This document shows positions 1 through 24,106 of a DNA stretch of 64,000 bases, one piece after another. Made by a program: the position numbers and the translations under genes. The notes under the pieces were generated by a model. The model was given only the letters and a program-made list of their open reading frames with translations. It was not told the origin of the DNA and ran no database searches. Within the stretch, counting starts at the first letter, position 1. Each line of letters starts with the position of its first letter. This DNA is from Argopecten irradians (Eukaryota; Mollusca; Bivalvia; Pectinida; Pectinidae), in contig NC_091135.1 in the NCBI RefSeq assembly GCF_041381155.1, forward strand, positions 52,031,997-52,095,996. The letters are read 5' to 3'.

Positions 1-280
1 GTCTCTGTAATCTTCAAAGGTAGGACTGTGATTGGTCAGTTTTTCTCCGAAATGCCTTCAGTTTTGCTGCCATTGTCCAATGGTGTCGCGATAGTGATAA
101 TAATCTCTGAAGTATTGAGGATGGTTAACTTGTGCCTTTTGATATGTGGCAGCCTGGCATTGTATATCAAATGGAAGGATTTATGTCATGTATTGGAATG
201 TTTTAAGCCGATGGTCCATCTTCTGTACATTGTATAATGTCTTTCACTTCATCCCCATTTTTGAAGGAGAACAAGAAAAA
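1..280. other. Flank downstream of MsrA, no gene recognised
   Basis: This is the window edge beyond the predicted MsrA poly(A) site. A 69-codon plus-strand open frame (28-237) has no recognisable domain and no convincing splice context. It could be part of a neighbouring gene outside the window, but I cannot support that. Confidence 0.4.
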
Positions 281-299
281 AGTGATTAAAATCATAAAA

Positions 300-305
300 T
301 TTATT
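300..305 (-). promoter_or_regulatory. Poly(A) signal AATAAA of MsrA
   Basis: AATAAA on the minus strand, about 395 nt past the MsrA stop and 64 nt past the SECIS element. It would give a 3' UTR that includes the SECIS. The call rests on hexamer and position only. Confidence 0.55.
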
Positions 306-368
306 GGACAATTAATATCACAGATAGCACCATAAATACTGTCATATCAGCTATATATTCTAAAACAT

Positions 369-431
369 GAACCATGTGATACATCAGGTTAAAGTCTTAA
401 TGATTTGAACTTTGACCTTCATTTAATGGTC
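369..431 (-). promoter_or_regulatory. SECIS element (selenocysteine insertion) of MsrA
   Basis: It lies in the 3' UTR, 270 nt past the MsrA stop. On the minus strand the order is: lower helix (GACCAT pairing with ATGGTTC, one bulge), an internal loop, the quartet strand AUGA (422-419), a helix of about 10 pairs with one C-A mismatch (AGGUCAAAGUU against GACUUUAACCU), an apical loop starting C-AA (AA at 406-405), then the opposing UGAU strand (386-383). The spacing from AUGA to the apical AA is 12 nt, as expected for SECIS elements. The stem was folded by eye, not by a program. Confidence 0.85.
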
Positions 432-700
432 TGAATGGGTTATGCTATATGGCTGATAAGACAATATACAGGTGTCGTGTAAAAAGTAGATTCAGTATGA
501 CGAATCATTAACAGGTTAATATGAAGCACAAATCTTCAAAACAGAATTTCATATTAAGAAAAAAATATCATTGCATGTTGACTCAATATCTGGAGTTGAA
601 AAACAGGAATGCTGTCTTGATTCTTGAAGGGTAAAGCTAGGCAAGAAGTCAAACTATTCTGATATTTGTAGCGTTTAAATTGTCAAAGTTTTGAATTTTT

Positions 701-3700
701 TCATATACACCTCTTCTGGATCTGTGTCCTGATGATTGAAAGTGTCTTTTCCGATAATCCAAAGTTGCTGCATTCCTGGCAATAAAAAATATACATTGTA
801 TATGCAATACATTTGTATTAAAATGAAAATGTATCGCAACATAAGAAATTTTCAAGTGCAATAATCCCATATTATTATCAGTTTTGAAAATATTATTTTT
901 TAATTGCATCATCATCATCATCATCATCATCATTTCTTTTATTCCTCAAAACTGAGATGCAAAGATTAAATACAAGGTAATATATATACATTTGAAGCTA
1001 CAGCAATTAATACATTTACAATTGCATATCTACATTATGAGGATTATTGTACTAGTTATCAGGTTTTATCAAGATAATATTATAATTTACTGGTAATATA
1101 CATATATATGTTCTTGATGTATGGTATCAAGTTGACTACTATAGCATAGAGACTCGATCATGATGTTAATTCATAACACAAGAATAATTTCAAATAATCA
1201 TCAATAGAAAGACAGTATAACAAATATATAACATGAATAGTTAGACTTTAACTTGAATATGACATTAGTTTAAGTAGAGGCTCTAAAAATCGAGAATCTT
1301 CAACAAGAGTTAGGAAAATGTCTGTGAAATCAAACTGAATGGGTTCTATATAATTATATAGTAATATAAAAGAAAAACTTCTAAATATTTATTATTAATC
1401 TTCCCAGTCATGAGTAACATGATTTAAATAGGCAGATAGTGGGGATATAAAGCATCAAATTCATTTTTCAATAGGATACAATGGCATAGAAAGCGTGTTC
1501 TTAACACTTGGAGTTCATGTAGTTGTTCCTGCGGAATATCCAGGTGTTCATATATCTGAGGCCTCCTACCTACTTATATGTGTAACATCTGATCATCATT
1601 TAAGTTTCAGAAGTATGTAGCGAGTTTATGATAAGTTTCCTGTAAAATACTTAAGTAGGTATCTCTGAATATTTGAGTGGCTGAACATTGCATTGCAGCC
1701 ACTCAAATATTCAGAGATACCTACTTTAGTAAAGATTTCTTTTTTCCTCTTTTTGATATTTTGTCTGACTTTTGTTTTTTTTTTTAATTGGGGAGAATCT
1801 ATCAGTAACTAACTGCTGATACATGTATATGATAAATGAATTCAGTTCTTGTTAAAATAGGTATTTTGTTTGTTACAAGACACCCAATCAGATTAATTGT
1901 AAATCATTACCTGATCAAACTGCTCCATAGAACCATAGCCTCCCAGATAACCGTTGAGCCTAGCAGCCACATGAGATGTTATGATGGCTTTATCAGAAAG
2001 ATTCAGTTTGTCTAAAACCTGGTAGTGTTGTCTGAGGATGTACTTCTGGTGATAGCTACAATTTAAAAATAGGAAAAGGCTTTAGATCATCTGTTTGTAA
2101 ATGTATTTGTCTGTTTGTTGTTCGATTTTTAACACTAACTCTACAACATATCAACACATGCAAACCTTTACTTCAATATATTTACATACCATGTCATTTA
2201 CACAAAGTAACTTGCTATGAGTCTCAACTATATCAAACTAAGCAGACAACTACAATACACTACATACCTATAAAGAACATTTTAGTGTAGGGGAGACAGT
2301 GATAAATGTTATCAACCATAAAATGTTAAGGTACCGTTTATAAATAATGAACTTAATTTTCTAATTATACAAAATAATTAGAAAATTGATTTGTTTCGTC
2401 TCCTATTTGGTATGAAAGGAAAGTGTTAAGCGTAATTCTCATTACTTATAATCTGTAATGAATGTTACATTGACACTTACTTCTCAGCATTGTAAAAAAC
2501 ACTAGCAGGAAGGATTTTGGTAGCTATTGGCCTTGAGGATTCCTTTTGAAGTTTTTGCATAGATTCCTCTGCCATCATCTTTTGCTTTGTGCCATGATAA
2601 AAGATAGCCGACATGTATTGATTGTTGTTTCGAGTATAAGGACAGTGATACTTCCAGAACATGTCCAGTAGCTCACCATAGCTGACCTTTTCTGGGTCAA
2701 AGTTCAAGGCCACAGTCTCAGTGTGATCACCTCTGAAAAATGCCATAATTTGACAACATCTTCACATCATTTTCATTTTACGATAAATAAAGGATCTTTC
2801 AGATATTTAGAAATTTATTGATATGTTCAAGCCTTATAAAATCATTTAAACATTTTTCAAGTTTCATTTTCATGTTTCATGTTTCATATCCACAAGTATT
2901 AGATTTTAGATGTATATATGTAACAAGAGATCCCAGAGGGATCTTGGCGCCCACCAAAGAATGATCTATGTCTGACAATGGAAAGAGGGATCTTTTCCCT
3001 GCTTTTCAAACTTTTTCAAACACACTACATATAAAATTTGAGACAGATCCCTATAGTACTTTCTAAGAAATAGTGGTAACAAACTTCAACAATGAAATCT
3101 AAGATGGCGGCCGGTTTGCCATCTTGTTTACCGATCAGTCCCGAAAGGCATTATAGATCAGTCCTTAAATGTACTATGCACAACTAGGGTACAAGGGGAA
3201 ACTATGCATGGAATTTGAGAAAGATCCCTTCAGTAGTTTCTGAGAAATAGCGATAACAGACTTTAACTATCAAAATCCAAGATGGCCGTAAGTCGGTCAT
3301 CTTGTTTACCGATCGGTCCCAAAATGCTATATGCACAACTAGGGTCCTAGGGGAACCTATATATGAAATTTGAGAAAGATCCCTTCAGTACTTTTTGAGA
3401 AATAGCGGTAACAAACTTTAACTTTCAAAAATCCATCTTGTTCAGATGGTCCAGCACAACTGTCCTAGGGGCCATATTGAAATTTGAGAAGATCCTTCGA
3501 TACTTTTGAGAATAGCGGTAACAAACCAAAAATGCAGCCTGTCGGCATCTTGTTCACGATCGTCCAAAATGCAACATGCACAACTAGGGCCCTAGGGGAC
3601 CCTATATATGAAATTTGAGAAAGATCCCTTCAGTACTTTTTGAGAAATTGCGGTAACAAACTTTAACTATCAAAATCAAAGATGGCCGCCTGTCGGCCAT

Positions 3701-4223
3701 CTTGTTCATCGATCGGTTCCAAAATGTAATATGCACAACTAGGGTCCTAGGGGAACCTGTATATGAAATTTGAGAAAGATCCCTTCAGCACTTTTTGAGA
3801 AATAGCGGTAACAAACTTTAACTATCAAAATCCAAGATGGCCGTCTGTCGGCCATCTTGTTGACCGATCGGTCCCAAAATGCAATATGCACAACTAGGGT
3901 CCTAGGGGAACCGACATGAAATTTGAGAAAGATCCCTTCAGTACTTTCTGAAAAATAGCGGTAACAAGAATTGTTAACGGACGGACGGACGGACGGACGG
4001 ACGACGGACGCCGCGCCATGACATAAGCTCACCGGCCCTTCGGGCCAGGTGAGCTAATAACTTACATATTACGGTAGGTTGCATCCTTTGTTGATCCACC
4101 TGTGAATCCAACGCGGGTTTTAACCACACCAGGGACACACCCAAACTGGGCCTCGGGGAACCAGAATCAGCTCATGGCAAATCTGGCCTCCTCAAGTCTA
4201 TCTCCATTGACAGCCTCAGACAT
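701..4223 (-). CDS. MSRA: Peptide-methionine (S)-S-oxide reductase MsrA, selenocysteine form
   Basis: Four coding exons, read on the minus strand: 4223-4066, 2732-2481, 2055-1911 and 775-701. All introns are GT-AG, phases agree, and together they give 209 residues plus stop. MsrA reduces methionine-S-sulfoxide in proteins. The family active site GCFWG reads S-U-F-W-F here: the catalytic Cys codon is TGA (4169-4167, residue 19) and is followed by PEAQFG. Other family marks are present: GDHTE (residues 54-58, with the catalytic Glu), QYMSAIF, NYHQKY and LNGYLGGYGS. Cys187 and Cys208 near the C-terminus are candidate resolving residues. The start is the first ATG of its exon, three bases inside the acceptor, so the 5' UTR is spliced; an extra upstream coding exon is not excluded. 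No targeting peptide is visible. A SECIS element in the 3' UTR supports reading TGA as selenocysteine. The alternative is a pseudogene, but every other codon and splice site is intact. Confidence 0.88.
907..933. repeat. (ATC)n microsatellite
   Basis: About nine CAT/ATC trinucleotides in the last MsrA intron (776-1910). It explains a methionine run in a minus-strand open frame that is not a gene. Confidence 0.95.
1653..1726. repeat. Perfect 31-bp inverted repeat with a 12-nt loop
   Basis: The arm 1653-1683 and its exact reverse complement 1696-1726 flank a loop of 12 nt, inside the last intron of MsrA. It is too far from the SECIS to be part of it. It may be a very short foldback element or an intronic hairpin. 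The perfect pairing points to a recent origin or ongoing conversion between the arms. Confidence 0.9.
2924..4057 (+). mobile_element. Helitron-like non-autonomous element, family A (about 153-bp tandem core)
   Basis: It starts with a palindromic stretch (GATCCC-AGA-GGGATC). The body is about six diverged units of 150-154 bp, each carrying GATCCCTTCAGTA and AGATGGCCG. An (ACGG)n run follows, and the element ends with the hairpin GGCCC-TTC-GGGCC, then AGGTGAG and CTAA next to a T. A hairpin a few bases before a terminal CTRR is the Helitron 3' signature. Tandem ~150-160-bp cores with conserved ends are known in bivalve 'pearl'-type elements. No coding capacity. It is inserted in the first coding intron of MsrA. 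The 3' end is clear; the 5' limit is approximate. Confidence 0.7.
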
Positions 4224-4367
4224 TCCCTACAAATCAAATGTTGTATAATGATGATCGTACTATAACAATGCTATCTTAGAAAGTAAGCTATGTACAAAGG
4301 ATTACACATATAATTCAGGTAGTTGTTTCAGGAACATTCATATTTAATTGGAAGTACTGGTAGTTAA

Positions 4368-4724
4368 AGATGCTCCACCGCCGACAGAGCATAAATGATA
4401 TTCATCATTTAAACGATAATTGGTGTTTAATCATGTATATATATATGTCTAATTAACACAAACAATAATATAAAATAATTTAGTTTGCCTTTGGTGCAAA
4501 TGCAATCAACACTTCATTACATATAGGATACAGTGCCACAGATTTTTTTCGGGGTGCAAATAATTATCTTTTATAATTTAAATTTAAGTAAAATTAGAAC
4601 TTCAAACTTTTCAATAGTGGCATTGTTGTAAAGTAAGTAACTTTTGTAACTGAAGAAAAATACCAAATCGTCTGTTCTATTTTTTGATAGTGAAAAAATA
4701 CCATTTGTCAGCGGTGGAGCATCT
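4368..4724. mobile_element. TTAA-flanked MITE, copy 1 (357 bp)
   Basis: Terminal inverted repeats begin AGATGCTCCACCGC and are flanked by TTAA on both sides (4364-4367 and 4725-4728). There is no coding sequence. A second copy of exactly the same length lies at 11343-11699. TTAA duplication is typical of piggyBac-type transposition, so this is probably a non-autonomous piggyBac-like element; that superfamily assignment is inference. Confidence 0.85.
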
Positions 4725-5086
4725 TTAATCAATTTAGGAAGTTGCTATGTATCCTGATGTCATTTATGAATCATGACCTTTAATACAACCTTCCTTCCTG
4801 CTGTCTATTTGTTACTTCATACACACAGATTTTCTTCAACACCATCTAGTATAAATACATGTACATGTAGTACGGCTGCAACGATACACCAGTACTCCAA
4901 TACGATATGTATCAAAATACATACCCCTAGTTTCGATTATTTTCGATACAATACAATTGTTTTCTGTCATCTTGCATTTCCAACAGTTCTTTTAAAATGT
5001 ACAACTAATGCATTTATGCATTAATAAACCATACTTAAAAGAGACAAGTTAAAAAGGTGAGCATTTCAAATTACAGAAAAAAAAGA

Positions 5087-7724
5087 ACAAGAGGCCCAGA
5101 GGGCCTGTATCGCTCACCTGGTTTGTAATGCCAAGTAATTTTCTGAAGGAATTTTAATATTAATCTCTAAATCCCCTATTGGGCCCCACCTCTCCCGCCC
5201 CCAGGGGGTCAGAGCCAAAATTTATACAAGTTCTGTTCCCCTTCCCCCAAGGATGTTTATGGCCAAATTTGGTCACAATCCAAGCAAAACTCTAGGACAA
5301 GAAGTGATTTATAGGATTTACCTCTTTTTCCCCTATTGGGCCCCACCCGTCCTGTCCTCAGGGGGCCAGAGCCAAAATTTACAAGTTCTGTTCCCCATCC
5401 CCCAAGGATGTTTGTGGCCAAATTCGGTTACAAACCATGCAGAACTCTATGACTAGTAGCGATTTAAAGGATTTACCTCTATTTCCCCTATTGGGCCCCG
5501 CCCCTCCTGCCCCCGGGGAACCAGAGCAAAATTTATACAAGTTCTGTTCCCCTTCCCCAAAGGAAGTTTGTGGCCAAATTTGGTTACATTCCATTCAGAA
5601 CTCTATGACTAGTAGCGATTTAAAGGATTTACCTCTATTTCCCCTATTGGGCCCCGCCCCCTCCTGCCCCCGGGGGACCAAAGCCAAAATTTATACAAGT
5701 TCTGTTCCCCTTACCCCAAGGATGTTTGTGGCCAAATTTGGTTACATTCCATTCAGAACTCTATGACTAGTAGCGATTTAAAGGATTAACCTCTATTACC
5801 CCTATTGGGCCCCGCCCCTCCTGCCCCTGGGGGATTAGAGCCAAAATTTATACAAGTTCTGTTCCCCTTCCCCCAAGGATCGATGTTTGTGGCAAAATTT
5901 GGTTACAATCCATGCAGAACTCTAGGACAAGTACCGATTTATAGGATTTACCTATAATTCCCCTATTGGGCCCCGCCCCTCCTGCCCCCCGAGACCAGTG
6001 CCAAAATTTATACAAACTCAGTTCTTATTCTCCCAAGGATATTTCTGGCAAAATTTGGTTACATTCCATGCAGAACTCTATGACTAGTAGCGATTTTAAG
6101 GATTTACCTCTATTTCCCCTATTGGGCCCCACCCCTCCAGCCCCCGGGGGGCCAGAGCCAAAATTTATACAATTTCTGTTCCCCTTCCCCCAAGGGTGTT
6201 TGTGGTCAAATTTGGTTACAATCCATGTAGAACTCTATGACAAGTATCGATTTAAAGGATTTACCTATTTCCCCTATAGGGCCCCACCCCTCCTGCCCAC
6301 GGGGGGTCAGAGCCCAAATTTATACAAGTTCTGTTCCCCTTCCCCCAAGGATGTTTGTGGTCAAATTTGGTTACATTCCATTCAGAACTCTATGACTAGT
6401 AGCGATTTAAAGGATTTACCTCTATTTCCCCTATTGGGCCCCGCCCCTCCTGCCCCCGGGGGGTCAGAGCCAAAATTTACACAAGTTCTGTTCCCCTTCC
6501 CCCAAGGATGTTTGTGGCCAAATTTGGTTACAATCCATGCAGAACTCTAGGACAAGTACCGATTTATAGGATTTACCTATAATTCCCCTATTGGGCCCCG
6601 CCCCTCCTGCTCCCGAGGGACCAGAGCCAAAATTTATACATGTTTTGTTCCCCTTCCCCAAAAGGATGTTTGTGGCCAAATTTGGTTACATTCCATTCAG
6701 AGCTCTATGACAAGAAGCGATTTAAAGGATTTACCTCTATTACCCCTATTGGGCCCCGCCCCTCCTGCCCCCGGGGGATCAGAGCCAAAATTTTATACAA
6801 GTTCTGTTCCCCTTCCCCCAAGGATGTTTGTGGCCAAATTTAGTTACATTCCATTCAGAACTCTACGACAAGTAGCGATTTAAAGGATTTACCTCTATTT
6901 CCCCTATTGGGCCCCGCCCCTCCTGCCCCTGGGGGATCAGAGCCAAAATTTATACAAGTTCTGTTCCCCTTCCCCCAAGGATGTTTGTGGCCAAATTTGG
7001 TTACATTCCATTCAGAACTCTATGACTAGTAGCGATTTAAAGGATTTACCTCTATTTCCCCTATTGGGCCCCGCCCCTCCTGCCCCCTGGGGACCAGAGC
7101 CAAAATTTATACAAGTTCTGTTCCTTTTCCCCCAAGGATGTTTATGGCCAAATTTGGTTACATTCCATTCAGAACTCTATGACTAGTAGCGATTTAAAGG
7201 ATTTACCTCTATTTCCCCTATTGGGCCCCGCCCCTCCTGCCCCCAGGGGAACCAGAGTCAAAATTTATACAAGTTCTGTTCCCCTTCCCTGAAGGATGCT
7301 TGTGGCCAAATTTGGTTACATTCCATTCAGAACTCTATGACTTGTAGCGATTTAAAGGATTTACCTCTATTACCCCTATTGGGCCCCGCCCCTCCTGCCC
7401 CTGGGGGACCAGAGCCAAAATTTATACAAGTTCTGTTCCCCCTCCCCCAAGGATGTTTGTGGTCAAATTTGGTTACAATCCATGCAGAACTCTAGGACAA
7501 GTAGCGATTTATAGGATTTACCTCTATTTCCCCTATTGGGCCCCGCCATTCCTGCCCTGGTGGGGACAGAGCCAAAATTTATACAAGTTCTGTTTCCCCT
7601 CCCAAAGGATGTTTGTGGCCAAATTTGGTTACAATCCATGCAGAACTCTATGACTAGTAGCGATTTAAAGGAAATGTTGACGGACGGACGGACGACGGAC
7701 GGAAGGACGGGCCAGGTGAGCTAA
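5087..7724 (+). mobile_element. Helitron-like element, family B, with long ~156-bp tandem array
   Basis: It begins with a palindromic head (AGGCCC-AGA-GGGCCT, then GTATCGCTCACCTGG) and a short unique stretch. About 15-16 tandem units of roughly 156 bp follow (anchor CCCCTATTGGGCCCC at 5173, 5330, 5485, 5641 and onward). It ends with an ACGG-rich run and GGCCAGGTGAGCTAA. Units differ at a few per cent of positions. The many open frames inside it share phrases such as FPLLGPAPPAP because they are readings of the repeat unit, not genes. A shorter reversed copy of the same family is at 16264-17187. Confidence 0.8.
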
Positions 7725-7745
7725 AAATACTGAATGCGTCAACTA

Positions 7746-9100
7746 CAGCACCATGACAAAAGTATTCAAGATTTTTTAAAATGGCGGCTCCGGCGCTGTG
7801 AGCTTCGGGCGATTAAAGGGGTATAACTCGTACAGAAATGTATTTTTTTGGCTAATTTTTTTATATGACATCGCAGATGATGTAACTGACGTCATTTGTC
7901 AAAGACAGATGTCAGCTTACTAAAATACCAACGTAAACAAAGCCACGTAAAGATGGGGAGGAAATCGGCGGAAGTTTCGTCTGATATGAAAAAAGTTATA
8001 ATAGAAATGAAGTCATACGGACATAAAACTTCAGAGTTGGTGAAGGCAACAGGAATACCAGAATCTACGATTAGATCCATATGGAAAAGGTATTTGGAAA
8101 GTGGAACTCTGGAAAACAAAGCAAGAACAGGTAGGCCGTCCAAGTTGTCAACAAGAGACAAAACATGGCTTTTTCGTTACACAAAAACAAACAGAGGCAA
8201 AGTATTGACGGAAATAACTAATGAATTAAATGAAAGATTGGATATACAAAATACAGTAAATAGTCGAACTGTTCAAAGATTTCTTCATAAAAAGGATTTG
8301 AAGCGCAGAGTTGTCAGAAAAAAGATGGCTGTTTCGGAAGTAAATCGTAAAAAAACGTTTAAGCTGGTGTTTAGAAAAAAGACGACTTAGTGTGGAACAA
8401 TATTGGAAAACTACAATATTTTCTGATGAAAGTCAGGTTGTAATAGGTGATAATCACCGTGTATATGTGTGGAGAACAGCCCGTGAATCTTTTCTACCAG
8501 AGTGCATGTGCCCTCCCCGTCAGCGCCGGATATCTGTTATGGTGTGGGGATGCATCACATATTATGGTGTAGGAACTCTTTGTAAAGTTGACGGAAATAT
8601 AAATGCCCAGAAATACATAAATATACTAGATGATAATCTTTGGCCTGTTATCGCTCAGCATTTCGCCGACAAAATATATAGATTCCAAGACGACAATGCC
8701 ACCGTACATCGGGCACATGTTACAAACGAATTTAAGCTGCAAAATAATATATCAACCATTATATGGCCTGCACAATCACCAGACATTAATATTATTGAAA
8801 ATTTGTGGCTTAGAATCAAAAGGACTTTGCAAAACAACGCCCGGAACATCGGATCTGCAGACCAGCTGTTTCTAGCGATTTCCGATATATGGGTTTCATT
8901 CACTCTGCAATACGTTAGATCTTCATATAATTCAATACCTCGCCGTTTGTTGGCAGTTGTCAAGTCCAAAGGTCACCTCACAAAATACTAGGTAAGTGCA
9001 ATTATTTTAATGTTGTTTATATAACGTTTTCCGTCAGCGATGCTTAATGAAATGACGTCCGCCATCTTGGAAAATCGCGAATACTTTTGTCATGGCGCTG
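7746..9100 (+). mobile_element. Tc1/mariner-superfamily DNA transposon (DD34E), full length 1355 bp
   Basis: The element has TA target duplications at 7744-7745 and 9101-9102. Terminal inverted repeats start CAGC(A/G)CCATGACAAAAG, continue through GTATTC and reach ATGGCGG about 40 bp in. It encloses a transposase with one frameshift. It lies 21 bp beyond the end of the family-B repeat and upstream of the GFOD gene. The well-kept ends and single break suggest fairly recent activity. Confidence 0.92.
7953..8991 (+). pseudogene. Tc1-like transposase, one frameshift
   Basis: The first frame (from ATG 7953, MGRKSAEVS) holds paired helix-turn-helix DNA-binding motifs ending in a GRPSKLS linker. 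The second frame (to 8991) holds the catalytic core: IFSDES (first D), FQDDN (second D) and SPDINIIENLW (E), with 34 residues between the second D and the E. The frames are offset by one base at a run of seven A (8349-8355); one A too many explains it, since the second frame continues upstream as KRLSWCLEKRRLSVEQYW, the usual family wording. A sequencing error in the A-run is possible, in which case the gene would be intact. Confidence 0.9.
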
Positions 9101-9853
9101 TACATCGATTATTTCATGGATTAAATTTGAAAATAAACATATTTAGGATAGTACAGTTATTGTAGCTCTAAAAAGTTAGGTTATACAAGGACGACATACA
9201 CTGTGACTGTTTACGTAACCAAAATTTACAACCAACAAAACAGATCTAAATATTGAGGCAATTGTTGGGAAAATAATATCATACTTTAAAAATGAGCTGA
9301 CATTAGCAGTTTATGTGACACATTTGTTACATAAAAAACGAATTCATACCTTAGATGTCGACAACCTCGATATAATTCTGTCTCTTAACCGACACACAAC
9401 ACGAAAATTATGAAACAGCATATCACATGATATGAGACTTGTGTGATTGTCGTCAATGGTAGGAAGATATCTGATAATCAATAAAAAAAATTTTTTTTAA
9501 GACAAAACATGTTTCGGATATAAAATATTGAATATCAATTTTATCCTTATCGAAGTATTCTTTTTAAAAAGCTTATTGGAATAAAATGATGTCTGCAGTT
9601 TACGACATCTCTGATGTTGGTAGCATCACGGAAACGTTTTCAATTAACAGGTATGGGGTAGTGGAGGAAAGCATTTTATTGACTTTGATTACCTGTCAAG
9701 AGAGTTCGGAAGAAAATTTTGTTCGAGGAGGACGAGGAAAAGTTCCGCTAGTTCTATGTGTGTTTTGTTTAGTTAGAAAAACTGGTCGGTATACGATAGA
9801 AGAGCTTTTGATATTTCGGACGAATGGTCGACTGCCTTAGTAAATGAAGCAGA
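9101..9853. other. Upstream region and probable 5' UTR of the GFOD-like gene
   Basis: AT-rich sequence with an A/T homopolymer pair near 9482-9500. An 84-codon open frame (9586-9840) ends 13 nt before the GFOD start and could be an upstream open frame; it matches no family I know. No TATA box or splice acceptor can be placed with confidence. Confidence 0.4.
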
Positions 9854-11041
9854 ATGCGGAAAATGCTTCCCGGTATTGGCGTGATCGGTACCACAACATC
9901 CATACGGTCGTACGTCCCACTCTTGAAATCATGCGGATTTCATGTTGCCGCGCTATGGGGTCGAACGAAAGAGGAAGCAGACGATCTTGCAAAAGAGTTA
10001 CACATACCATTCAGTACAAATAGGGTCGACGAAGTCTTGCTAAACAGAGACGTAGATGTCCTGGTTATAAGCTGTCCTCCTCATCTTCAATCCCCTATAG
10101 CTGTGAAAGCGTTGGGAATAGGAAAGCATGTTCTGTGTGGGGCTCCAGCAGGACCATGCCAGGTAGATGCTTTGAGGATGGTCAATGCCTCCAGATACTA
10201 TCCGAAATTAATGTCATTCATTGTTTTCGGACTGCGCTTTTTACCAACAATCTGCAAGATGAAACAATTGATGGAAGAATGTTTCATTGGAGAAATGACT
10301 ATTTGTGAAGTTAACATACACTTTGAAGCCAGTCCAAAGGAAAAGTTCGATTGGATGTGTGACGAAATGATGGGAGGCGGTGTTCTAAATACAATAGGAA
10401 GCAATGTAATTGACGTTATTTCTTATCTCACTGGACAGAAGGCTACAAAGGTCCATGGAATGTTGAAAACATACACAAAACAAACTGAAAAAATTAAAGG
10501 AATCAGAGAAATAACAAGTGATGATTTCTGCTCTTTTCAAATGGAACTTGACAAAGGATCCTGTGCTACTGTTACCATTAACAGTCATATACCTGGCGTG
10601 TTCCACCAGGAAATACTTATGGTTGGCACAAAGGGCCGTTTGATTGCCAAAGGTGCAGACCTTTATGGTCAGAAGCATTCAGAGAAGAAGGAGAGACTCA
10701 TACATTTTGATCCTATCAATTTCAAAGAGGAGGAAAGACATGGAGTTTCTGATAAAACAAGGGCAGAAATTGCAACACCATATTTAAAAGGCATCATAAG
10801 AATGATTGAAGCAGTGAAAGATGCATTTGAAAAGGAAGAAGAACGACAAAGGTACTGTCAGGATCCTGTTTTGCAAGCAGCAAATTTTGAAGACTCACTT
10901 TATGTTCAGACTGTTGTTGATGCCATAAGGAAATCAAATAAAACCAAAGAATGGATGAAGGTTAATGTGATGAAAGAAGAACCAGACCCTAATCCATTCT
11001 TGTCCTCCTCTATCCGTAGCAGTACATATTCACTGCACTAG
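9854..11041 (+). CDS. Glucose-fructose oxidoreductase domain-containing protein (GFOD1/2-like)
   Basis: An uninterrupted frame of 395 residues. The N-terminal half is a dinucleotide-binding Rossmann fold with the glycine turn GIGVIGT, followed by the family phrases LWGRTKEEADDLAKEL and ALGIGKHV. The C-terminal half is the GFO/IDH/MocA domain, with RFLP, MGGGVLNTIGS, LTGQKATKVHG, ITSDDFCSFQMEL and DLYGQ. The closing EEPDPNP resembles the vertebrate GFOD tail. Vertebrate GFOD proteins are about 385-390 residues. The family usually starts MLPG, so the second ATG (9863) may be the real start, giving 392 residues. The function of the family is poorly known: it looks like an NAD(P)-dependent oxidoreductase, and GFOD2 has been linked to extracellular matrix. 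The coding region has no intron here, so either the gene is naturally single-exon or it is an old retrocopy. I cannot tell whether it is closer to GFOD1 or GFOD2. Confidence 0.93.
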   Translation: MRKMLPGIGVIGTTTSIRSYVPLLKSCGFHVAALWGRTKEEADDLAKELHIPFSTNRVDEVLLNRDVDVLVISCPPHLQSPIAVKALGIGKHVLCGAPAGPCQVDALRMVNASRYYPKLMSFIVFGLRFLPTICKMKQLMEECFIGEMTICEVNIHFEASPKEKFDWMCDEMMGGGVLNTIGSNVIDVISYLTGQKATKVHGMLKTYTKQTEKIKGIREITSDDFCSFQMELDKGSCATVTINSHIPGVFHQEILMVGTKGRLIAKGADLYGQKHSEKKERLIHFDPINFKEEERHGVSDKTRAEIATPYLKGIIRMIEAVKDAFEKEEERQRYCQDPVLQAANFEDSLYVQTVVDAIRKSNKTKEWMKVNVMKEEPDPNPFLSSSIRSSTYSLH

Positions 11042-11273
11042 ACTTTGAAGAAGTTACAGAATTAACACTGTATATATTACCAGAGAAAATCTCATATCAC
11101 TATTTATTAAGTTGATATTGTACACATGCATACAGTAACAAAAATCAAGTTATTGTCATGAGAACAATGAAACATATAAGAAAATATTTTGAAAGATTTA
11201 ATTGTATGAGATATACATGTAGTTTGATTGAAAAGAACTTCCAAATTTTGTGGTTTAGGTATGGTACTGAATT

Positions 11274-11279
11274 AATAAA
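11274..11279 (+). promoter_or_regulatory. Poly(A) signal AATAAA of the GFOD-like gene
   Basis: AATAAA 233 nt past the GFOD stop, giving a compact 3' UTR that ends just before the TTAA MITE at 11343. Confidence 0.5.
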
Positions 11280-11342
11280 AATCTGTGTCATAGACAAATT
11301 CAGTATTTTTCTGGGAAACTTCTAATTAATGTTTTGCTTTAA

Positions 11343-11699
11343 AGATGCTCCACCGCCGACAGAGCATAAATGATATTCATCATTTGAACAATAATTGGTG
11401 TTCAATCGTATATATATATGCCTAATTAACACAAAAAATATTACGTAATAATTTATTTCGCCTTTGGTGCATGCGCAATCAGTACTTCATTCCATATAGG
11501 ATATAGTGCCACGGAATTTTTTCGGGATGCGATTAATTATTTTTCATAATTTTAAACTTTAAGTAAAATTAGAAGCTCAAACTTTTCAATGGTGGTAATG
11601 GTGTAAAGTAAGTAACTTTTGTAACTGAAGAAAAATACTAAATCGTCTGCTCCTGTGAAAAATAGTGAAAAATTACCATTTGTCAGCGGTGGAGCATCT
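11343..11699. mobile_element. TTAA-flanked MITE, copy 2 (357 bp)
   Basis: Same ends (AGATGCTCCACCGC), same length and same orientation as the copy at 4368-4724, with TTAA at 11339-11342 and 11700-11703. The body is collinear with copy 1, with scattered substitutions. It lies just past the 3' end of the GFOD-like gene. Confidence 0.85.
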
Positions 11700-11703
11700 T
11701 TAA

Positions 11704-13099
11704 GATACTGGTCACTAATCTTTATTATATATATCAGGTAGATGATAATTAACCTTCTGATTTTTTTCACAATTGAAAATTGAAGTAATCATTTATTGTT
11801 TTCCACTGGTTAAGTCTCACTTGTATTTAAGATGTTATAAATTGAAAAGGAAGTTGTGCAGCAATATTAATTGCCATCTCAAGCTCATGTCTAGAGTAGC
11901 AGTTTATGTGATCCAATATTGTATTACTCATTGAATTTAACAACTATTTCAACACACAACACATTAAAAAATAAATAAATTCTTTACGTCAGGAAAACTG
12001 AAGTAAAAATATGCTGATATTGGTTGGTGATTAGATTGATGTGGTTATACTACATATTAAACACAAGAAAAATTTCTGGCAATACTTTTATAATATTTCA
12101 AATTGAAGACCAAAGTATGTACCATGACCGGTACTGTAAAATTCCTCAAAAGATTGCAAATGTATATTGACATTTTTTTATAAAAAACATTTTAACCTAT
12201 TTTCTGAAAAGTAAAAACGCAATGAATTTACAAAATGAAAAACAAATACTTTATTGAACATTTTAATTCATTAATTGTGTCTAATAGTTTGATTGATGGT
12301 GCAACACTGATTGTATGGTTGATAATCTTTGTTCATAGTTGATAGCTAAAATCTATTTGTATGATTAATATAGTCTGTGTTTGACTCCATGTCTAGTCTG
12401 TCCATTTAATGGTATATTTGTAAAGGTGACAGTCTTTCAGTATGGATGGTAACAAATTGTTGATAGCTATGACTTAGTGAAAAATTATCCTATGTGGATG
12501 TTTATTTCCCTTGTACAGCAGTGTTCCATATAATTTAGAGGGATGGGTAATTGTGCTCGCACTTTGAAGGAGAGGGTTAAAACTCTGGTTTCTGTGTGAA
12601 CCCAAAACTTAACAGAGACATTTCGATAAAAGCTATGCGGTTATAGTGTAAAGTAATCGATGATAAACTAGCAACTGTGGAATATCTATCTAGAACAAGA
12701 GCACAGTTGATGCAGACTGGAAAAATGACTGGAATTGATTCTACTACATTTCTTCTTATTTTATTTCTGGATGTAAGCGCTCATAATAATTGGGATGAGT
12801 AATATTTTGGGTAATTTGTACACATACATACAATTTTTAAGGGTAATTGGCAGATTTTCAATGGGTATTTTACTCGTGTACTCATCTTAACTGGAGCACT
12901 GAGTACATGTATTTGATTATGTAGTATGATGTACATGTAATTAATGACTGACTAAATGGACAAATTGTTGTTTATCATGACCTTTATAGTTTTATGTGAA
13001 CTTCTGACAAGAGTTAGTGCTATTTTTAGTAGAGCTGATTTATTATAATTATTATCAATGTTTTTCGTCAGAAACATTTATAACATTTATGTTCTCTCT
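11704..13099. other. Intergenic DNA, no feature recognised
   Basis: AT-rich sequence without long open frames, splice-like coding exons or clear repeats on either strand. Confidence 0.5.
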
Positions 13100-13341
13100 C
13101 ATTCTTGATGCTCCAGGAGTTACCATCTATGACATTATATCCAACCCGGGACTATCTCATAGTTACACTGGAGGCAGCTTATGAGAAAAAACAGTGTACT
13201 GTTATTTGATTCTTTTGATATACACCAAAGAACCAAATTCAGCTAAACTTACCTGTGTCTTATGTTCCTTCAGTTTTACTATGACATTGTCCAGGGGTGG
13301 ATATTACGACAATGATAGTAACCCCTGGTGTAGTGAGGATC
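13100..13341. mobile_element. MITE-like element with CCTCGGTACTCCAGGGGTTAC-type ends
   Basis: The left end (reading TTGATGCTCCAGGAGTTAC) and the reverse complement of the right end (reading TCACTACACCAGGGGTTAC) form an imperfect inverted repeat of about 23 bp around 240 bp of non-coding DNA. A shorter element with matching ends is at 38901-38971. Target duplications are not clear, so superfamily is not assigned. Confidence 0.5.
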
Positions 13342-16263
13342 ATTCTCTCTGTAGCTAGTAATCTTTTAAACTTATCATGACATTATTTATACTACCTACA
13401 GTTAAATAACATAGAAGATTCATACATTGATATAAACATTTCCAAAATGAACATCAATGTAATCAAGTTTACTAAATACTGTCTACATACCCAAGGATAC
13501 TACTCATCCGTATGAATAAAGATACTAAATATGGATACTAAATATTTTCACTACAAAGTAACTAATCATTATCAAGAAAAAGAGAACTAAACATCCCTAT
13601 TTCCAATGTATGAGGACATCAACATTAAAGAACAGTTTCTGTGGTAAAGCAGTTAACGTTTATTTGATTTTGTGTCCAACAGAAAGATATTATGTCATTT
13701 TATTTTGTTAGCTAATAACATCACACCAAAAGTAGATTAAGATTCTTTATTGTTTCAATGGTGGAAAACTGAAATGAAATGTCCCAATTTTTATGTACAT
13801 GTTGAATACATGAACATGATATGTCTCTACAAATGGATCTGAAATGTTGATATTTTCCATTATCATAGTGTACTAGATATATGTATGTACTATATTGTAA
13901 TGTGTCAACCCATATGTATTTAGGGTGAGGTATTATGTGATCTTGTTTATAGTGACTAAATCTATAGAATGGACTATTCTTGTTAGACAAGGTGAGGTAA
14001 TTCTGTTATTACTATATGTTTTTTAGCCCACCACCATGAGATGGTGGGCTATCTTTTGTAACAGTGAATATCAGCATCTTCAAGTAAATTAAATTATGGA
14101 CCATTTAATTTCTTTTCTTGTACAATTTTGCTTTAACTGCATGATCAATTTGATTCTGACATTCTGAACAAAGTTACAGATGGTACATCCTTAAAACCTA
14201 CATTCCTATACAAAACTATTGTTTCTTCTTTCAGTGTTCGTAACTTGTTACTTTTTGTTGATGTCCATTTGATGATGTTGCTGTAGCTGTATATGATTGT
14301 ATGTTTACTTTATAAGTTATATCACTGGCATATTGTACTTATGTTACTATACTAAGACACATTATGAATCTCTGCATTATTTCATATATGGTTGGCTGCT
14401 GTAATTAGATGTGTTGTTATATATACAATGTAGTCGCACAATAGTCCGACAGTTTCATGGATTGAACATTCATAGCTTTCTGATGAAATGTCCTTGTGGA
14501 TATGCACTTACGGGATATATATTAAAATTGATGTAAACTGTTAATTTAAGTAAGGTACTGGGACATTGCTGTGACTGGTTACAAGCTTTGTCAAAATTCC
14601 GCTATTTCATTAGAACAATCTGCCCTTTAAGGTAACCAGTACAACAGTGTTAATCATGAAGCAGGCAGGGAAAGAACCTAGAGTATACAGATCGGCTGTG
14701 TCGGAAAAATAGTCATACTAAGGGAAGTAACTGTGATGGACATACAGCAGCCAGCCATGAGACACAAACTACTATATTTATAATTACTGGTATTAGATGT
14801 TTGGTTAGCTTTGTGTTGTAATGTATTGTAACATGCTTATTCAAATATACTTGCAATAGTAGTTAAGAATTTGGTATTATGACAAAATAAGAAATGCAAT
14901 AAGCATGTTATTTACCCAATTATTTGCAAATAAGCCCATATTTATTGTACACATTTTTATGGAATTTTTATGAAATTTAGATAGCCTAGATTTATATTTA
15001 CATCCTAATTGCATTACAGCTTCTGAACCAAAGTATATACACTGTATGTATATACATGTGCTATATAACATACTATATCTATAATTGATAAATAAGCTTT
15101 CGCACACAAATATGTCCCTGTAAGACTTGCAGTTTGGGTAAGGCAATCAGCTAAAAATGTTACATATCAAAAAGAACATTGCAGTCCCCACCACTTTACA
15201 CAATGTTTAATACAGATGTTTGCTCAAATTATGCTACCAAATAACTCTCCCTAAAATTATCATTTTCAAAGAGCTGGGAAAAAATGGGCTTATTTGAAGA
15301 TAAAATTTTCAAATAAATTTAGTTTGTTTGATAAAAGTATAGTGTCAGAGTTATAGAATTCCGGATGTCCGATGTTGACTTTGTATAATTGCATATAGAC
15401 ATAATAATTTTGTTCATATATGTGTGAAGAAAGAATCTGATTTCATCAACCATTTCTACAGATTTCTACATGTTTACAGATTACCTGAAGTAACAGTGCA
15501 ATACAATGATTGTGTTCAGAATTAACATCATGACAAGTGACTTTGATTTCATGGATATTTGTTACCTTTTTTCTGTGGGCTTGTTTAAATAAAGCATAAA
15601 AACAGAATTTGTTGAATGTAAATGAATATCATTATGGTAAAGGATGTAGTTACAATTTGTATTGTATTGTATAGTGTATTGTTGCTTTGATTTTCGTATA
15701 TTGCATACAAAAATTTGTCTCATTTTGTATTGTGGTTTTGGGATCCTTACTTAAAATGGATAAAGGAGAGGTTTAGGATTATGTAATTTATTGTAATTTT
15801 AATTTTCACAAATAATGAATAATTGATATTTAAAAACTTGTTGTCTAAAGAAAACCACTAATTGCTTTAGCTAATACACATTTCTTAATAATAACATTTA
15901 CATCTAAAGAGTTTTGCCTGTGTACACAAACACAAATTAATTTCAAATCTTTAAATAAATTATATGTTTAAAATTTTGATAAGGAGATGAAGAAAAAGAC
16001 ATAATAAGCTTGATCTTGTCATCATCTATTGTTTCCAAATTTTCCTGTTGAATAGCCACGTATTGATTGACGTTGATAACAAGAAGCACTTTTGTATTTT
16101 TCACAATTTATTATATTTAAATGCTATGAACAGATCAATCAAAACACTGGTTTGTTGATGTTAACATTCATAGAGCGACAAAATTTATAATGTAAAAAGA
16201 ACAAAAATAGTTTATTTTTACAAAAAATAAAATAAAAAATAATACTGTAAAGTGTAAACATTT
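13342..16263. other. Intergenic DNA with one isolated hairpin
   Basis: AT-rich and non-coding. The only structure noted is AGCCCACCA (14025-14033) pairing exactly with TGGTGGGCT (14042-14050), a 9-bp hairpin that looks like the end of a degraded repeat. Confidence 0.45.
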
Positions 16264-17187
16264 TTAGCTCACCTGGCCCTAAGGAGGGGAAATAGAGGTA
16301 AATCCTTTAAAACGCTACTTGTCTTAGAGTTCTGCATGAATTGTAACCAAAATTAGCCACAAACATCCTTGGGGGAAGGGGAACAGAACTTGTATAAATT
16401 TTGGCTCTGATCCCCCAGGGGCAGGAGGGACGGGGCCCAATAGGGGAAATAGAGGTAAATCCTTTAAATCGCTACTTGTCATAGAGTTCTGAATGGAATG
16501 TAACCAAATTTGGCCACAAACATCCTTGGGGGAAGGGGAATAGAACTTGTATAAATTTTGGCTCTGGTCCCCCGGGGGCAGGAGGGGCGGGGCCCAATAG
16601 GGGAAATAGAGGTAAATCCTTTAAATCGCTACTAGTCATAGAGTTCTGAATGGAATGTACCCAAATTTGACCACAAACATCCTTTTTGGAAGGGGAACAG
16701 AACTTGTATAAATTTTGGCTCTGACCCCCCGGGGGACAGGAGGGGTGGGGCCCAATAGGGGAAATAGAGTTAAATCCTTTAAATCGCTACTAGTCATAGA
16801 GTTCTACATGGATTGTAACCAAATTTGGCCATAAACATCCTTGAGGAAAGGGGAACAGAACATGTATAAATTTTGGCTCTGACACCCTGTGGGCAGGAGA
16901 AGTGGGGCCCAATAGAGAAAATAGAGGTAAATCCTTTAAATCGCTACTAGTCAAAAAGTTCTGCATGGAATGTAACCAAATTTGGCCACAAACATCCTTG
17001 GGGGAAGGGGAACAGAACTTGTATAAATTTTGGCTCTGGCCTCCCGGGGGCAGGACGGGTGGGGCCCAATAGGGGATTTAGAGGTTAATATTAAAGTTCC
17101 TTCAGAAAAGAAACAATGAACCTGTATTCAGAACATTACTTGGCATTACAAACCAGGTGAGCGATACAGGCCCTCTGGGCCTCTTGT
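16264..17187 (-). mobile_element. Helitron-like element, family B, short reverse copy
   Basis: The reverse complement runs from ACAAGAGGCCCAGAGGGCCT, through the same unique head and about five 156-bp units, to GGGCCAGGTGAGCTAA. It shares head, core and tail with the element at 5087-7724 but has about one third of its units. The copies therefore differ mainly by array expansion or contraction. The (ACGG)n run seen near the end of the longer copy is absent. Confidence 0.8.
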
Positions 17188-17697
17188 TTTAATCTAATAT
17201 TAAGAGAAAATTTTCAGGAATCAATGTTATAGCTGTTGATATTAGACTATGTACAATGTACATTTGTATATGATAATTAATTGCACTGTAATAATACATG
17301 AACAGTACCTAGTAAAATGGTAATATTTTTTGTCTGGTTTAACTTGAAAGACAACTATTATCTGGTTTATCTGTTAATGATATTCATTTTAATACACACC
17401 AATATGATGATATAAAACCAGTGTTTTTGACCATTAAGGTTGACCAAGTTGGACCAACACTACAACAATTCCATGTTATGCCATTGGACTGTGCCATTAG
17501 TTACCACGTTGTTGTCAGTATTTACTGTTAAACTTACCTATATAGAAATGTATGTTGAGAATTAAATCTACTAAAACTTGTAGGTGTTTTTATTCTTTTC
17601 TCTTCCACCATTATTTGATGGTGTCTGTCAAGTTCATTATATGGTGGAACTGTAATATATCACTGAAAGTCCAAGAGAGGTTGTGGTGTTTACAACT
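17188..17697. other. Intergenic DNA between two repeats
   Basis: AT-rich, no coding or repeat signal recognised. Confidence 0.4.
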
Positions 17698-18065
17698 AAT
17701 CAAGAGATCCAAAATGGATCTTGATGCCCATCAAAGAATGATATGTGTCTGACAATGGAAGAGGGATCTTTTCTCTGCTTTTCAAACTTCAACCTCAGAA
17801 CTACAAATACAATTTGAGAAGTTCCCTTTGGTACTTTTTGAGAAATATAGCGGTTTGAGTGGTAACAATCTTCAACTATCAAATTCCAAGGTGGTTGCCT
17901 GTCGGCCATCTTGTTAACTAATCAATCCCAAAATGCAATATACATAACTATGGACCTAGGGGAACCTACAAATGGAATTTGAGAAAAATCCCTTCAGTAG
18001 TTACGGAACTTCCAAGAAATAGATGATATAAACTTCAATTACCAAAATCTAAGATGGTCATTTGG
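17698..18065 (+). mobile_element. Degraded Helitron-like element, family A
   Basis: The head (CAAGAGATCC, then GGATCTTGATGCCCA and GACAATGGAAGAGGGATC) matches the start of the family-A element at 2924. About two diverged core units follow (CGGCCATCTTGTTAAC, CCCTTCAGTAG). The characteristic tail with AGGTGAGCTAA is missing, so the copy is 3' truncated or too decayed to see. Confidence 0.65.
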
Positions 18066-19163
18066 AATGACCTTGACCTACTTTCCTAATCGAGGTCAAA
18101 TACATTTAGAGTTTTTGAGAGAGAGAAAACAGCCAATGCATGGATAAAGAACAACTGGTTTGAGATGAAAGAGTTAATTTCTCTTCAACGAGAAAAGAAG
18201 TTTACGGCTCAAGGACATAACCTTTAAAAAAATATGTCATAACCTGCTTATTTCGATCTGACTTTGAAGAGAATATACAAACGTTGACTTGCCAATCATA
18301 CAAAGTTGAATGCTATGTGTATTAACGCTAACATCGTGGGGTCTAATGATCCATCTCGGGGCAAATTGAGTTATGTATATGCGTAAAGGATGAAGCATGG
18401 GGAAGCGATCGTTTACATTTTGTATTATCGAGACTTGTTGAAAATCAGTAACTTCTTTCTAACTTAGAAAATGTTAAGATGAATCGTATGTTTGAATATA
18501 CAAAGATAATAAAGAAATTAATAAACTTGATTAGGAATATTTTGAAGAAATATACATATATCACAGAAACACAATTTAACAAAGGACGACAATTTATTAT
18601 TTTTTTACTCGCGTTCTATCTGGGCCACGAACTCGCGATCTACGGCACCGCCTAGCCAAACATACCTGCACCTTTTACCTAAGTGATTGTCGATATGCTG
18701 ACATGATTGATCACTGTGGAATTGGGCGGTTAATTTGATTGGAAAATTGCACTTGTCTTTTCTTTTTTCTAGGAACAATGAATTTGATTTACATCATGTT
18801 CTGAAAGTGCAACATGAATATGTTTACCGGATAATATATGTGCTTTTATTAATGCATCAATTGCTGCGCACGTTTTTGTTAACATAACGTTGTATTTTTA
18901 AGGAAAACGGCGTGAATTAAAAACAAAAACTTTTAACATTTACTTGTCACTTCTACTATATAAACTAACTAAGTCAAAGTGAAGTATATGACGGTATAAC
19001 TGACACCCAAAACGTGACCATAATGACGTCACTTATGTTGACCTGATCACCGTAAAATGGCTGTTCTATCTTGTGGATTAAATCGTCGTTGATAAACAGT
19101 TTTCCTGGTCTAGCTTAAACAATGTTAATGCAGAGGCCCTAAAATGAGTTGATTATGTCAATA
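18066..19163. other. Intergenic DNA, no gene recognised
   Basis: Non-coding. A GC-richer stretch near 18610-18670 has faint resemblance to tRNA-derived SINE promoter boxes on the minus strand, too weak to call. Confidence 0.4.
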
Positions 19164-19165
19164 TA

Positions 19166-19379
19166 AGCATTAAACTATCTTGGTATGGCATCTATGGTCT
19201 ATACAGATGCCGGAGTTTTGCAGACAATCTTCATAATGCGCGCTGCTATGGTCTAGATATAGATGCCAGAGCTTTTCGGACAATCATCTCACAATGCGCT
19301 AGCGCGCATTATGAAGATTGTCTGCAAAGCTCTGGCATCTATATAGACCATAGATGCCTTATGAAGATAGTTTAATGCT
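19166..19379. mobile_element. Foldback element, 214 bp, TA-flanked
   Basis: The two ends, from AGCATTAAACTATCTT inward for about 78 bp, are near-exact inverted repeats, so the element can fold into one long hairpin. It is flanked by TA (19164-19165 and 19380-19381), as in Tc1/mariner-type MITEs. The middle contains a further partial direct copy of the arm (CTATGGTCTA, AGATGCCAGAGC), so it looks like an arm duplicated and inverted more than once. No coding sequence. Confidence 0.8.
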
Positions 19380-19522
19380 TAATTAGTCCCACCATCCGGT
19401 TGTTATGACATCATGATTTGACGCGAGTTTCGTGACGTCAAAATCAGCGGAACTTGGGACAAATCGACGGTAAATTGTACTTCACCCACGTCGTTTTGGG
19501 TCTCTCGAAATCGCCGTATTGT

Positions 19523-19603
19523 CACAGGCGTTTGGCTCTATAGACATTTTTGTCTATATATATATGTAGTACTGTAGTATGTCTATAGATCCAAACGCCT
19601 GTG
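19523..19603. mobile_element. Miniature foldback element, 81 bp, with 7-bp duplication
   Basis: Arms of about 24 bp start CACAGGCGTTTGG and are inverted at 19580-19603, with a single substitution between them. GTATTGT is repeated directly on both sides (19516-19522 and 19604-19610). The size and near-8-bp duplication suggest a hAT-like MITE; that assignment is tentative. Confidence 0.7.
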
Positions 19604-19907
19604 GTATTGTCCTACCAACAAGTAACAGGGGATGTTGTTGTAATGGTTCCAGTGAATTGTTTATTGAATGTCAACTGTACAACGGGAAATTCGACATGAA
19701 GCGCGGTTAATTGAATTACCCTTGTCCAGTTGGCATTCATCATTTAAATTACTGCCAACTAGAAACATTTCAATGCTTAAAAATGACGTAATAGTAAATA
19801 CCTGACGATCTAATTTTAAAATTGATTATATCATATCCATTTTTGTAACCTTGGTATGATGTAAATTTAAAATTCTGTAAATAAATAGTACCACTGGCTG
19901 TTTAATT

Positions 19908-20072
19908 CAGACTGGCCACCAGACTCGGTTGTTGATGAGATTTTTTTCTAAGTCTAATTCTACAGTATCTCCCCCTAGTTTGAAACTTAGAATCAAACAT
20001 GTAGTAGAGACAACAATAGTCTGGCCAAATGTTAGTGATTTTTTAATATTCTACAGACTGGAGGCCAGTCTA
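19908..20072. mobile_element. Possible MITE with CAGACTGGCC ends
   Basis: The left end CAGACTGGCCACCAGACT and the reverse complement of the right end, AGACTGGCCTCCAGTCT, form a short imperfect inverted repeat around 130 bp. An internal phrase, TATCTCCCCCTAGTTTGAA, recurs near 49414 in another non-coding stretch, so this belongs to a dispersed family. No target duplication is obvious. Confidence 0.4.
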
Positions 20073-23397: not shown

Positions 23398-24106
23398 GAT
23401 CAAGTAATGGACACACATATACCTATTACATAACATATGCCCCAGTGATCCCCACCCCGCCCCTTATTTGTGTTGTACGGGGAAATCTGTATTTCGTTGC
23501 ATTATTTACTGCATAACACAACTGGGGTCACATAATCAGTGTTTTCTAAAGTTTCGCTTCAAACAGAGAAGAACGAAGTTCAACATAACCTTGTAAAAAG
23601 TATCATTTGAATCTAATTTGTAGCACTAAAGTGTAGGGGTCATTATGTAATTTTGAAAGTGACCACATGAATGAAAATGATAACAGGTGTGTCAAGCGAT
23701 TTCATTGGCTGTCGGAAATGAATGACAGCGTGGCAAAGTAGGTTAGGCACGCCCACTTATGATATTGGAAGATGGCGCCGTACAGAGGAAACGAGGACAA
23801 CATTGCTCGTTTTGAGATGAGGTGCGTTTGTGCTATGAATTACTCGCCCAATTTGTGATCGATACGTAAGTTTACACCATTTTATATGACTTTCATTCAC
23901 ACTGACCTCCTAAAACTGTGTAGAAACATCAGAAGTTGACTATGACCTACTCTTAGCCGGAGAACTCCGTGGTTGGCAGGTTACCAACCTCGATCCCTTT
24001 CGAATGGTGCTCTGATACTCTCGGTTACGTACGCTAGACACACGCAATGTAAGGATAAACTTTTTACGTTCGATTTAACCAATCTACCTCATGCTCTACC
24101 TCGCCG
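23398..24106 (+). promoter_or_regulatory. Promoter region and 5' leader of lin-41
   Basis: The base composition shifts to more GC and CpG upstream of the lin-41 start. ATTGG (inverted CCAAT) is at about 23704. A 28-codon open frame begins at a good Kozak start, GAAGATGG (ATG 23772-23774), and contains a donor-like GAG|GTGCGT at 23821/23822. It may be an upstream open frame or a short first exon. Just before the lin-41 ATG the leader has two let-7 seed complements: CTACCTCA (24084-24091) and CTACCTC (24096-24102). The transcription start is not known. Confidence 0.5.

Follow-up and report, generated by a model that had tools for sequence, protein, structure and literature searches.

Organization of the locus

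The window, i.e., the whole 64-kb stretch of Argopecten irradians DNA that was analysed, carries on its minus strand a gene for a methionine sulfoxide reductase A (MsrA) followed by a SECIS-like element, and on its plus strand further open frames of other families. The MsrA gene opens with an ATG at 4223 and closes with a terminator TGA at 703-701. Its coding sequence, 630 nt long, is made of four exons that join in frame, separated by three introns that are all GT-AG; the product has 209 residues, and its sole internal stop is a TGA at codon 19 (4169-4167).

300..305, minus strand: AATAAA, possible poly(A) signal, downstream of the SECIS-like element
371..430, minus strand: SECIS-like element in the 3' UTR (ATGA 422-419, apical AA, TGAT 386-383; Rfam SECIS_1, RF00031, 22.6 bits)
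701..775, minus strand: coding exon 4 (75 nt), C-terminus ECSNFGLSEKTLSIIRTQIQKRCI, terminator TGA 703-701
1911..2055, minus strand: coding exon 3 (145 nt)
2481..2732, minus strand: coding exon 2 (252 nt), residues 53-137, with active-site E58, Q91 and Y92
4066..4223, minus strand: coding exon 1 (158 nt), from the ATG, residues 1-53, with the putative Sec codon; donor gtaagt
4167..4169, minus strand: TGA in frame (codon 19), where MsrA has its catalytic Cys or Sec
8344-8991, plus strand: open frame with a match to the DDE transposase family PF13358
9848-11041, plus strand: Gfo/Idh/MocA-type oxidoreductase, one open frame
24059-26530, plus strand: TRIM-NHL protein, one open frame (RING, B-box, filamin, NHL repeats)

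The sequence-only reading had held that, the TGA aside, all codons and the three introns of this gene are intact. This is borne out, as the 630-nt frame holds with no further internal stop and with GT-AG borders at the three introns. The frame of exon 4 is moreover supported by an FGLS-like stretch that also ends some bacterial relatives. UGA would have two uses in this gene, Sec at codon 19 and terminator at codon 210. In intron 3, a near-perfect inverted repeat (window 1652-1725) weakly matches miRNA families. Elsewhere in the window, a 7.7-kb satellite (39822-47516) is built of a 29-bp unit with 88-90% matches; as this unit length is not divisible by 3, its frames pass through every phase, and an open stretch of more than 640 codons is present in all three forward frames.

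Protein family and active site

The window protein matches the Pfam family PF01625 (MsrA) with 138.3 bits against a cut-off of 23.7 (E 3.3e-40) and, over residues 156-201, PF20939, the "Selenoprotein methionine sulfoxide reductase A, helical domain" (MsrA_helical), with 39.4 bits against a cut-off of 23.7 (E 5.4e-10). The best-matching PDB chains are 4u66, 4lwj and 7c13 (around 2e-45, the best at 2.1e-45), to which the protein is 43% identical, the next group (2j89, 3e-29) coming far behind. We take these three chains to be the MsrA of Clostridium oremlandii (CoMsrA), their residue numbering agreeing with that of PMC4333827. CoMsrA is reported to be a selenoprotein in nature and to have, in the Sec form, 20 times the activity of the Cys form; its activity requires the C-terminal helices, and its active site comprises the GCFWG motif, Tyr47, Glu55, Gln89, Tyr90, His137 and Tyr140 (PMC4333827). 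In the alignment, the six residues named outside the motif are all retained in the window protein, as Y50, E58, Q91, Y92, H139 and Y142. The motif itself is incomplete and reads SUFWF: F20 and W21 are retained, the TGA stands at the catalytic position, and S18 faces G in 81/81 aligned comparison sequences and F22 faces G in 77/81 and C in 4/81, among the matches listed. These changed glycines are the single oddity of the gene.

The predicted protein is like CoMsrA in its Sec at the catalytic position, in its two-domain build with C-terminal helices and in its short loop before QY. It differs from it by the SUFWF motif in place of GCFWG and by the eukaryotic SECIS-like element in the 3' UTR of its gene. 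Also, CoMsrA is without Cys according to the available part of PMC4333827, whereas the window protein has four (C29, C83, C187 and C208).

Our scan kept 80 prokaryotic relatives (at least 558 being confirmed among at least 593 stretches). Among the matches listed, their codon in the catalytic column is TGC in 48, TGT in 31 and TGA in 1, a count in which Sec forms are under-represented because one of the two search patterns had Cys at the catalytic site. The in-frame TGA had been said to fall exactly on the catalytic residue, and it does: the aligned column is Cys in 79 of these 80 relatives. The single TGA-bearing relative among those listed is deltaproteobacterial (L043), and it also matches PF20939. 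Three Halanaerobium sequences (L045, L046, L048) carry a Cys MsrA of the helical type fused to an MsrB-like C-terminal part, recognized as MsrB by eye. Among 134 pattern stretches from viral contigs there was no relative, and the 4 matches to a UFWFPEA pattern were judged by translation to be chance occurrences.

The SECIS-like element and the 3' UTR

The stem with AUGA, apical AA and UGAU that had been described in the 3' UTR was recovered at the coordinates given above. Its ATGA lies 278 nt past the terminator and, in the spliced RNA, about 850 nt past the Sec codon, and its apical AA sits 12-13 nt past the ATGA. SECIS_1 aligns to it end to end (430-371), with 22.6 bits and an E value of 0.051 when the 421-nt stretch is searched alone; it is also the only SECIS_1 row among the 81 weak matches listed for the whole 64 kb (E 7.7, 4227 families counted). 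This score is below the curated Rfam cut-off of 35, and at curated cut-offs Rfam gives no match anywhere in the 64-kb window. The missed cut-off says little, since SECIS_1 matched only 1/6 GPx regions scanned (L124 of L124-L129), regions that may stop short of the 3' UTR. Across the assembly, 0/150 SECIS_1 candidates scored reach 35 bits, the best having 33.3.

We also scanned both strands of the 64 kb with a motif made of RTGA, AA or CC 9-14 nt further on, helix II and TGA. With at least 9 pairs, two matches were obtained, the SECIS-like element and one at 62026 (plus strand); with at least 10 pairs, the SECIS-like element is the only one. First-order Markov copies of the UTR were matched in 21/5000 (at least 9 pairs) and 11/5000 cases (at least 10), rarity figures that are not blind, the helix register having been adjusted after the element was viewed. 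On nine control regions, the scan (at least 9 pairs) found a match in 4/9 on the sense strand and in 1/9 on the antisense strand, and it missed three of the four control regions that have a Rfam SECIS_1 match (L121, L122 and L124; L123 was found). The folding energy of the element is ordinary compared with shuffles (z -0.42) and uninformative.

An ATTAAA hexamer (window 427-422, minus strand) ends on the base with which the SECIS core ATGA begins. ATTAAA is a common variant poly(A) signal, and cleavage at this one would take away the SECIS.

Probable selenocysteine decoding in the Argopecten irradians genome

The search for the Sec machinery covered tRNA-Sec, SepSecS and SelD. The assembly contains a tRNA-Sec gene with anticodon TCA, SepSecS exons on C11 and SelD-like exons on C12, the latter scoring below the curated whole-protein cut-off. 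Among 16 GPx matches, 10 span the active site, and 9 of these 10 have UGA in N-V/T-A-x-x-U, the remaining one (L030) having Cys. Moreover, an MsrB exon (L150) reads RYUIFS; it has an E value of 0.32 by itself and adjoins a better-scoring exon (L147). Among the five SECIS_1 places listed for the genome, L024 and L025 are located 3' of Sec-GPx exons and in the same orientation as these; the frames around the three others (L022, L023, L026) show no nameable gene. We infer from these genes that the genome decodes UGA as Sec.

Two closely similar Sec-GPx genes (C6:40161973 and C6:40220057), with equal SECIS_1 scores, lie 58 kb apart and are perhaps a recent duplication. Weak tRNA-Sec matches also fall in tRNA-like arrays, mostly with a spacing of about 2.1 kb (C6:28971975-28996322, C6:38558973-38587181, C9:18507770-18525318 and C880); the single array member scanned (L010) is a tRNA-Ser (GCT).

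Search for other MsrA genes

All 846 Mb of the assembly (1508 contigs) were searched with PF01625, TIGR00401, the window protein, a Pseudomonas MsrA and the MsrA fragment of 2l90, and none of these queries found a Cys-MsrA paralogue in it. The window protein gave five rows, the four MsrA exons and one insignificant place (E 0.48), and the four other queries likewise recovered exons of the window gene. Over all the MsrA searches, the other places were insignificant, with E values of 0.48 (C12), 3.1 (C13) and 8.3 (C2). A Cys-MsrA could be hidden by short exons or by assembly gaps; a like exon-wise search did recover MsrB exons on C14, C4 and C5.

Branch of the MsrA family

In an 82-row tree, the window protein joins the helical-type group (support 92/78, not starred) on a long branch of its own. 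A catalytic-domain tree of 79 rows, from which L047 (of the helical type), L071, L075, L095 and L113 were omitted for long branches or poor cover, gives the same position (94/67, not starred), again with a long branch. The "helical" label of the rows comes from visual inspection of the alignment: when six relatives were scanned with PF20939, L041 and L043 matched, and L052 (labelled helical), L055, L060 and L092 did not. In the haloarchaeal members of the helical-type group the tails are shortened; L052, the haloarchaeal member that was scanned, is the labelled relative that has no PF20939 match.

The 2l90 chain, which we take to be mouse MSRA, is placed among ordinary bacterial MsrA in the catalytic-domain tree. 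A tree constrained to unite it with the window protein is worse by 50.4 log-likelihood units (AU p 0.043), the clade tested having been chosen after the first tree was seen. Because of the long window branch and of a test set after that first tree, it is only suggestive that the window protein groups with CoMsrA-type proteins and separately from vertebrate MSRA. The two share the PF01625 catalytic fold, but vertebrate MSRA is a Cys form that appears on another branch of the family, whereas the window protein has TGA at the catalytic site. From its C-terminal helical domain and these comparisons, the window protein does not look like a vertebrate MSRA in which Cys was swapped for Sec.

A probable working selenoprotein gene and its alternatives

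We consider, with a probability of around 0.93, that the locus is a working gene for a selenoprotein MsrA with the helical domain (CoMsrA type), of which the assembly yielded one copy. This is what the sequence-only reading had proposed, and the gene structure, the position of the TGA, the protein family, the SECIS-like element and the apparently Sec-decoding genome all agree with it. The four coding exons would be spliced into one MsrA mRNA, whose 3' UTR SECIS stem would recruit the machinery for Sec insertion; UGA would then mean selenocysteine at codon 19 and the end of translation at codon 210. The Sec selenolate, set among F20, W21, Y50, E58, Q91, Y92, H139 and Y142, would reduce methionine-S-sulfoxide, and the C-terminal helices would maintain the shape of the active site, as those of CoMsrA do; the reductant of the window MsrA is likewise one that we infer.

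In favour of a dying Cys-MsrA, in which TGC or TGT has freshly mutated to the nonsense codon TGA, or of an assembly error at that base, both flanking glycines of the motif are altered, and codon 19 was read in a single assembly. Against such decay, there is a single stop in 209 codons and it falls exactly at the catalytic codon, the splice sites and the other active-site residues are retained, and the UTR carries a SECIS-like stem. Furthermore, the nearest family is that of selenoprotein MsrA, the same genome has UGA at the catalytic site in GPx and MsrB exons, and no second MsrA that could take over was found in the assembly. We hold a dying gene or such an error to be very improbable. Still less probable is a skipping of the UGA, through an alternative exon that gives a Cys active site or through a downstream start: the acceptor-like TTTGATTTGTAG directly before the ATG means that an upstream exon may exist, but the motif [CUGS][CU]FW has no second match in the three minus-strand frames of 1-20000, and the next in-frame Met is M77 (exon 2), from which the catalytic motif would be lost.

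Place among known Sec-MsrA and implications

The sequence-only reading had Sec-MsrA as present in some invertebrates, and the literature reports it: in sponge, placozoan (Trichoplax), sea anemone (Nematostella), annelid (Capitella) and amphioxus (PMC3473315), and in Strigamia, Daphnia, Ixodes and amphioxus (PMC4244043). The available part of PMC3473315 gives the MsrA selenoprotein as absent from Lottia, the sole mollusc studied there, and we found no earlier report of a bivalve or other molluscan Sec-MsrA in the open-licence literature. The window gene is like these invertebrate genes in being an animal MsrA with a predicted Sec, and like the Sec-MsrA of Chlamydomonas (mentioned in PMC4244043) in being a eukaryotic one, both likened by description and not by sequence. 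Sec-MsrA in animals is hence already known, and the window gene, complete and with its SECIS-like element, is a well-supported further animal example. It also illustrates how ordinary annotation would lose the active site.

It was proposed that the Sec-MsrA of a common ancestor was converted to the Cys form independently in insects and vertebrates (PMC4244043). The position of the window gene suggests that it would fit a separate lineage lost by vertebrates better than a Sec-to-Cys conversion. In a broader and tentative version of this view, to which we give somewhat less than even odds, animal Sec-MsrA would be an old, separate helical-domain lineage from which vertebrate Cys-MSRA does not descend; the Sec gene would have been lost from vertebrates and insects, which kept another, and the window gene would be the sole MsrA of this scallop, making methionine-S-sulfoxide repair wholly selenium-dependent. 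Should this animal indeed have no other MsrA, one stereochemical arm of its methionine repair would depend on the supply of selenium. As for the family, the helical domain and the tree indicate that the Sec-to-Cys picture for vertebrate MsrA may mix two lineages.
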